Assembly (NCBI GenBank): GCA_016873225.1
Contig: VGXS01000012.1
Span: 41,869 to 105,868 of the forward strand
Origin: Planctomycetota bacterium
GTDB lineage: Bacteria; Planctomycetota; Planctomycetia; Gemmatales; Gemmataceae
Reading direction: 5' to 3'
Length of the DNA stretch: 64,000 bases
The stretch's first letter is position 1. Every line of letters begins with the position of its first letter. Shown here one piece after another: positions 28,255 to 29,786 of the stretch. A program made the position numbers and the translations under genes. The notes beneath the pieces were generated by a model, which did not search any database, had not been told where the DNA came from, and saw only the letters and a program-made list of their open reading frames with translations.

Positions 28255-29187
28255 TTAAATCTGGTAAAAGCCTGAAAAATTGTCGAATTCACCCTTGGAC
28301 GCACCGCGGATCCTGAGCGATGGCTTGTCCATCATCACCATGCTGTGGGGCGCCACCGACTGGGTAAGCCACACGCTTGAGCCGATCACCGAATGGTGCC
28401 CCACCACGGTTTCGCCACCGAGGATGGTGGCGTTGGCATAGACCACGACATCGTCCTCGAGCGTTGGATGGCGCTTGCGGCCCCGGATGATGTTGCCATT
28501 CGAGTCGCGGGGAAACGACAGGGCCCCGAGCGTGACACCCTGATAAAGCTTGACGCGGTTGCCGATCACACAGGTTCCACCCACCACGACACCGGTGCCA
28601 TGGTCGATGAAGAACCCGGGGCCGATCCTCGCCCCCGGATGCAGGTCGATGCCGGTTTGCCCATGGGCCAGTTCCGTCATCATGCGGGGAATGACAGGCA
28701 CCCCCAGAAGCAACAGTTCATGGGCCAGCCTGTAAACGGCGACCGCATGCAGGCCGGGATAGCAAAAAACCACTTCCTGGCAGCTGTGAGCCGCGGGATC
28801 ACCCTCATAGGCGGCCAAGACATCGGCCTCGAGCACTTCACGCAGCGCCGGCAACCGCTCGAGGAGGCCTAGCGCCTGCTCCATCGACCGGTCCTTGGAT
28901 TCCGATGGGGTGCGGCCGGGCTGGCCCACACGGGAAATCTGCTCGGCCAGCCTGACACGAAGGTCGTCGAGCAGGTCGCCGACATGGTAACGGATATTGC
29001 CGGAATTGAGGTTTTGCCGCCGATGGAAGCCGGGAAACAGGAGTTCAAGCAGGTCTTCGACAATCGCCGCGATGGCGTCGCGTGACGGAATGATTTCATT
29101 TCCAAGGTTGCATGTTCGGGAATGCCGTCCATACGACGCGACAAGCGCCTTGGTCAGGTCTTCCGGAAATGAATCGCGCGATTCCAC
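28255..29187 (-). CDS. cysE: Serine O-acetyltransferase (EpsC/CysE type)
   Basis: IDLHPGARIGPGFFIDHGTGVVVGGTCVIGNRVKLYQGVTLGALSFP...RHPTLEDDVVVYANATILGGETVVGHHSVIGSSVWL left-handed beta-helix hexapeptides. Confidence 0.93.
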   Translation of the reverse strand: MESRDSFPEDLTKALVASYGRHSRTCNLGNEIIPSRDAIAAIVEDLLELLFPGFHRRQNLNSGNIRYHVGDLLDDLRVRLAEQISRVGQPGRTPSESKDRSMEQALGLLERLPALREVLEADVLAAYEGDPAAHSCQEVVFCYPGLHAVAVYRLAHELLLLGVPVIPRMMTELAHGQTGIDLHPGARIGPGFFIDHGTGVVVGGTCVIGNRVKLYQGVTLGALSFPRDSNGNIIRGRKRHPTLEDDVVVYANATILGGETVVGHHSVIGSSVWLTQSVAPHSMVMMDKPSLRIRGASKGEFDNFSGFYQI

Positions 29188-29508
29188 GGCGCGGGCCTCC
29201 CAACATCATTCGTATCGTAGCGAACGCCCGGTTCCCGCCACGAATGGTCACGAACGGTCTTGTCCGACAACTGGAAATTGTTCACTGCCCAAAAACCGTG
29301 CAACAAGTTGCCCTGATCGCACGCAGCCCATGCAAACTGATTGGCCAATCAACGCGCGGCCGGGAAACCCGAATCTTTTTTAGGATCACAAGATCAAACA
29401 AACCAATGACTTGCGACAAATGCACCCAAAAATTCTGCAACACCGAAACAGTTGGCACGGTGACTGCATTACATGTTTTGTTCGACTCGGGGACAGAGGC
29501 GAACACTC

Positions 29509-29646
29509 GCTCCGGGCGGGCAGGTTCAAGGGAGAGGTGGACCTGTCCGTTCGGAGCCCGAATCAAGCGCGAAGCGCAAGAGGAGCCAAGCCTTCCGGAG
29601 TTCATCGGACCAAGGGGAGAGGTGGTCCGGTGAACCCGGAGGGCTT
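29509..29646 (+). ncRNA. Candidate structured RNA: two long hairpins with matching GA-rich loops
   Basis: HP1 29509-29557: 19 consecutive pairs (with G-U) around loop AAGGGAGAGGT. HP2 29588-29646: 11+12 pairs with one bulged A around loop AAGGGGAGAGGT. Small GCGC-GAA-GCGC hairpin between. G-U pairs are valid only if the + strand is the RNA. Confidence 0.6.
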
Positions 29647-29715
29647 ATTTTGCAATATGGTCAACAAGTTCAATTAGCTTGTCCAGCCAACTGTCACCTG
29701 CCATAATTTTGTCAT

Positions 29716-29786
29716 GCGGGATTGGTATATCGGCTGTGCCCAGCCTTCCCAAGGCTGTGAGACGAGTTCGACTCTCGTATCCCGCT
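29716..29786 (+). tRNA. tRNA-Gly (anticodon CCC)
   Basis: Acceptor GCGGGAT/ATCCCGC, anticodon arm CAGCC-TTCCCAA-GGCTG, T arm ACGAG-TTCGACT-CTCGT; no encoded CCA. Confidence 0.93.

Follow-up and report, generated by a model that had tools for sequence, protein, structure and literature searches.

A predicted sigma54-controlled twin-hairpin RNA conserved beside cysE in the Gemmatales

In this study, we followed up two long hairpins with near-identical purine loops in a 64,000-nucleotide stretch of planctomycete DNA (the whole of which is called the window here) and found that they almost certainly belong to a genuine RNA gene that is conserved in the Gemmatales and is apparently undescribed. 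Taking the evidence from sequence comparison as a whole, and leaving aside the identity of its partner, the gene is likely to encode a stand-alone small RNA of ~170 nt under the control of sigma54 and an enhancer, whose loops would act in trans. The preliminary description of the hairpins had proposed an undescribed structured RNA and named Rfam cmscan and a covariance-model search of planctomycete genomes as checks, both of which were carried out and uphold the proposal. No Rfam 15 family matched at gathering thresholds at the window locus or in eight homologue loci, there was no credible weak match at the window locus, and among open-licence PMC papers we found no description of this RNA, nor of any small RNA from Gemmata or the order to which it belongs.

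Fold and strand of the twin hairpins

Both hairpins lie on the plus strand where the preliminary description had placed them, and the computed folds agree with it. Hairpin 1 (29509..29557, loop AGGGAGAGG at 29529-29537) folds as RNA into 20 unbroken pairs (MFE -37.4 kcal/mol, z -5.6), one more than the 19 originally counted, the twentieth being an A-U pair that closes the loop. Hairpin 2 (29588..29646, loop AGGGGAGAGG at 29613-29622), which would double as the terminator stem, has 24 pairs and a single bulged A (MFE -43.6 kcal/mol, z -6.9). None of 200 shuffled sequences folded as stably as either hairpin, and a 17-nt direct repeat contains both loops. The linker between the hairpins includes a small third hairpin, GCGCGAAGCGC, that is not conserved. 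Among Gemmata-type copies the linker as such is conserved (CUCGCUNAUACAACC-like, columns ~68-86 of alignment A8), and it may serve as another site of interaction.

The RNA strand is the plus strand, as had been argued earlier from the G-U pairs of the two stems. This is settled because wobbles across homologues comprise 52 G-U against 3 A-C pairs, and because the plus RNA is the more stable strand for 110 of 118 distinct hairpins. In the window, the minus-strand folds are weaker (-23.9 for hairpin 1 and -36.3 for hairpin 2). A minus-strand RNA with C-rich, anti-Shine-Dalgarno loops was considered and is ruled out by the G-U statistics and by the direction of the promoter and terminator. Alphaproteobacterial CcsR-type RNAs have an architecture of this general kind, with repeated hairpins and one invariant CCUCCUCCC loop; those loops are C-rich and anti-Shine-Dalgarno, whereas the strand of the Gemmatales RNA is the G-rich one.

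Distribution of the element

The element occupies the corresponding position in two other genomes of the window's genus. The conserved blocks of the same-genus alignment are TTGGCACG-N4-CTGCATTA, hairpin 1, and hairpin 2 followed by TTATTTT; a tRNA promoter, TTGTCC-N17-CATAAT, forms a separate conserved block with its tRNA. A covariance model of these three sequences, the window and its two relatives (R1), identified roughly a dozen convincing relatives from different genera of Gemmataceae, and two of its weak matches (L052 and L056) were shown to be genuine loci with cysE as an anchor. Two further models were built without the window sequence, and both recovered it. The first of these (R2), made from six of the other-genus relatives alone, re-found the window at E 1.4e-4 and matched 40 of 95 family genomes; against 398 genomes of the class its matches were confined to members of the window's family, Gemmataceae. 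The second (R3), made from Gemmata-type loci, recovered the window with an E value of 6e-7. Across the remaining 391 genomes of the phylum sample it produced only five weak matches (L224-L228), all outside the order and none convincing. Of these, L224, L225 and L228 received closer inspection and lack a tandem partner, a sigma54 box and a T-run; the matches were attributed to chance. A pattern scan of named genomes gave a similar picture: matches reaching into the long hairpin were all from Planctomycetota, including Zavarzinella formosa DSM 19928 (Zavarzinella being a genus of Gemmataceae, Gemmatales) and MAGs labelled Gemmataceae, and matches from outside the phylum were without the long stem.

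Beside cysE, the element was identified in ~75 of 99 Gemmatales genomes, two of them from the sister family f2, a count that is approximate, being based on regular expressions and folding with fixed cut-offs, and that is drawn from related genomes, which are hence not independent observations. It combines 34 genomes in which an R2 match lies beside cysE with ~41 of 60 further cysE upstream regions, which came from genomes without such a match and were scored by the presence of one or more hairpins with a GGAGAG loop; a search with that core returns GGAGAG-bearing copies by design. Several of the Gemmatales regions without the element are cut by contig ends, and 18 of 86 scanned regions had no motif hairpin. 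Outside the order, the element was absent from all 40 of the regions upstream of cysE that were scanned.

In the window's genome there is one exact occurrence and one model match, and most genomes have a single locus, usually with two hairpins 65-85 nt apart (range one to five hairpins). These numbers bear on the reading of the hairpins as a DNA-level element, either a repeat (REP-like or from a transposon end) or a plain terminator. Long hairpins and T-runs would suit such an element, and so would the fact that some genomes have the unit duplicated in tandem. The reading is already contradicted by the data, however, and we give it next to no probability: the window's genome holds a single locus in place of a dispersed repeat, synteny is fixed, the G-U pairs are strand-biased, a dedicated promoter and enhancer accompany the hairpins, and a plain terminator would not conserve its loop.

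Covariation of the stems and invariance of the loop

The stems and loops have evolved in very different ways. In the same-genus genomes, both stems carry compensatory C-G to U-A changes and the loops are identical. Across 29 Gemmata-type loci, two-sided, pair-preserving change was found at 20 of 23 stem pairs, with 131 covarying cells versus 33 after shuffling (a value of 131 was reached in none of 500 shuffles), and 95.3% of cells were paired, a value that fell to 19-46% when the structure was slid by one to three columns. The pair adjoining the loop-closing pair occurs as all four Watson-Crick types in both hairpins, and the loop-closing G-C pair itself is invariant. Because both stems show compensatory changes within the genus and covariation across the order is strong, the predicted structure is far beyond chance. 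The preliminary description had supposed that the loop is conserved as such and the stem in structure only, and the homologues fit that view.

The loop AGGGGAGAGG was present in 29/29 second hairpins and 27/29 first hairpins of the Gemmata-type loci, with TTGGGAGAGG in the first hairpin of L166 and L167. Loops in other genera are closer to AUGGGAGAG. All loops have GGAGAG in common, a core that was also used to find many of the copies. This nearly unvarying loop is probably the working part of the RNA.

Predicted promoter, enhancer sites and terminator

A sigma54 -24/-12 promoter element, TTGGCACGGTGACTGC, lies upstream of hairpin 1 on the plus strand (29452..29467), with 15 bp from TGG to TGC, and is kept in three same-genus genomes. 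Of 68 loci, 60 have the same element ahead of their first motif hairpin, compared to one of 68 for a reversed-pattern control, and eight loci had no strict promoter match. The gene for sigma54, rpoN, was found in 94 of the 102 Gemmatales genomes.

Further upstream are two candidate enhancer dyads with no strand assigned, TGCCCAAAAACCGTGCA (TGC-N11-GCA, 29286..29302) and TGCCCTGATCGCACGCA (29309..29325), the second of which is overlapped by a CGC-N11-GCA sequence (29318-29334). An NtrC-type dyad, YGC-N11-GCA, was found upstream of the promoter in 60 of 61 loci. These sites cluster near -136, -158 and -169 relative to the -24 box, and paired dyads are often ~22 or 32 bp apart, which corresponds to two or three helical turns. 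A scan of spacer lengths had a sharp peak at 11, TGC..GCA occurring at that spacing in 49 of 61 loci versus at most 13 at other spacers and three in a downstream control. Comparison with the NtrC box, TGCACCAnnnTGGTGCA (PMC8743547), revealed agreement in the 17-bp length and the outer TGC/GCA but not in the inner ACC/GGT. Since the agreement extends to length and outer triplets only, the activator and its signal are guesses.

At its other end, hairpin 2 runs into a T-rich tail, TTATTTT (29645..29651, plus strand), which is kept in two same-genus genomes, and 55 of 68 loci have a T-run after their last hairpin. Hairpin 2 and the T-run look like an intrinsic terminator. From the positions of promoter and terminator, we infer an RNA of ~173 nt (29479..29651, plus strand) that would start ~12 nt past the -12 element and end at the T-run. 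Control of this predicted gene by sigma54 and an enhancer is very probable.

Genomic neighbours

The conserved neighbour of the RNA is a divergent gene for a cysE-like serine O-acetyltransferase (28255..29187, minus strand), an open reading frame called cysE-like from its sequence, without a Pfam scan. Of the 102 Gemmatales genomes, 99 have a cysE orthologue, and in the ten loci inspected the RNA is located upstream of this same gene, in divergent orientation. On the far side from cysE, the RNA adjoins a tRNA-Gly (29716-29786). The preliminary description had set the hairpins next to this tRNA, which is correct as a position in the window but not as a conserved association, a role that falls to cysE. 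As far as seen, the tRNA-Gly(CCC) adjoins the RNA in the window's genus only, and it has its own conserved sigma70-type promoter, TTGTCC-N17-CATAAT (29679-29786 with the tRNA); its adjacency is incidental. The tRNA was reported by ARAGORN and is below the gathering score of the Rfam tRNA model.

What lies downstream matters for a further explanation, in which the hairpins form a leader or attenuator that controls the downstream gene by termination, the gene being secA in many genomes and tRNA-Gly here. The resemblance of hairpin 2 and its T-run to a terminator and the frequent presence of secA downstream in the same direction as the RNA speak for this explanation. It is nevertheless very improbable, as the gene downstream differs between genomes and in some cases points towards the RNA, the tRNA-Gly is preceded by a separate promoter, and no alternative antiterminator pairing was seen.

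Comparison with known RNAs and possible function

By analogy, the closest functional relative known to us would be NrsZ of Pseudomonas aeruginosa (~226 nt), a small RNA that likewise stands alone, is induced by NtrB/C together with RpoN and has a stem-loop as its working unit (PMC8395346, PMC9308961). NrsZ differs in belonging to another lineage, in lying beside ntrC where the Gemmatales RNA lies beside cysE, in its loop motif (ACAGGCAG), and in being processed and acting on rhlA; the two were set apart here by location. By description only, the Rhodopirellula-1 motif is another likeness, as it is a candidate structured RNA listed for planctomycetes (PMC2864571).

We suggest that an NtrC-family activator and sigma54 would switch the RNA on under a particular stress, for which nitrogen limitation is a first guess because of the type of dyad. 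The stable stems would serve as scaffolds presenting two copies of a Shine-Dalgarno-like purine loop (GGGAGAGG-type) in trans, and there is a good chance that the RNA acts through these loops. The reading we favour, at somewhat short of an even chance, is that the paired loops titrate a two-site RNA-binding protein, either a CsrA-type dimer or a novel protein. GlmY/GlmZ and CrcZ are sigma54-dependent small RNAs (partly PMC6075780, PMC9308961) that are controlled through enhancer-binding proteins and can titrate a protein; they belong to other lineages, have other structures and no invariant twin loop, and the Gemmatales RNA has no Rfam match.

In a close second mechanism, the GGGAGAGG loops would base-pair with CCUCUCC-type sites in target mRNAs and alter their translation or stability. 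An accessible, near-invariant loop on variable stems suits a seed as well as it suits a protein site, and for NrsZ, a sigma54-dependent RNA, the 5' UTR of rhlA is the proposed site of action (PMC8395346). However, duplicate, identical, purine-only loops would be unusual for a seed, and the hairpin scan of cysE upstream regions revealed no separate conserved complementary site. We consider this antisense role possible, at a lower probability than titration.

A strict CsrA sponge, in which CsrA would be sequestered by the GGA loops in the manner of CsrB or RsmZ, is a narrower form of titration that we regard as unlikely. The Gemmatales RNA resembles CsrB/RsmZ-type RNAs in having hairpins that expose GGA in the loop; GGA is in every loop, and two sites would suit a dimeric protein. 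It departs from them in having an A_GGA that is not conserved, only two loop sites, a sigma54 promoter and no Rfam match. An A two bases before GGA is fixed in the CsrA consensus of E. coli and C. jejuni (PMC6692469), but it is missing from most loops here, where that base is mostly G or T and is A only in loops such as CAAGGGAGAGG, including that of hairpin 1 in the window. The csrA gene was found in 102 of 102 genomes of the order, with three copies in the window's genome, and because it is universal its presence is uninformative. Enrichment of csrA among predicted sigma54 targets in Planctomycetia has been described (PMC12316311); in the Gemmatales, two of 40 csrA upstream regions had a sigma54 element, the same as the control, and sigma54 control of csrA was rejected. 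Titration of a two-site protein in the broader sense remains our preferred reading. The preliminary description had suggested a CsrA-type protein or the anti-Shine-Dalgarno sequence as candidate partners; part of the Shine-Dalgarno-like GAGGUGG lies in the stem. More specific proposals, in which an as yet undescribed planctomycete RNA-binding protein has the GGGAGAGG twin loop as its ligand or the loop serves a ribosome-directed mechanism, are doubtful.

If either is true, the RNA would be the signature of a global response that is specific to the Gemmatales and activated via sigma54. More broadly, the RNA gene would connect signalling through sigma54 with regulation by RNA in bacteria whose cell biology is unusual. 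The RNA is known with its predicted promoter, enhancer, terminator and strong covariation from most genomes of the order, and it poses the question of what recognises a near-invariant purine loop that has outlived nearly every base of its stem. It can be tested at once in a cultured carrier, Zavarzinella formosa.

Variation among individual loci

Some loci depart from the usual arrangement. L127 (genome G104) has two complete units, each with a promoter and two hairpins, L140 (G010) has three hairpins with two promoters, L067 (G100) has five hairpins, and L079 (G012) consists of two copies 540 bp apart. Genomes G033 and G113 have a second locus away from cysE (L045 and L050, respectively), where a sigma54-like element accompanies two hairpins with GGAGAG loops, in addition to their cysE-adjacent loci (L142 and L150). 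Lastly, many of the cysE matches in family f4 (e.g., in G050, G054, G127 and G139) run through one in-frame stop, mostly TGA, which may reflect alignment past the end of the gene, though it recurs in many genomes.
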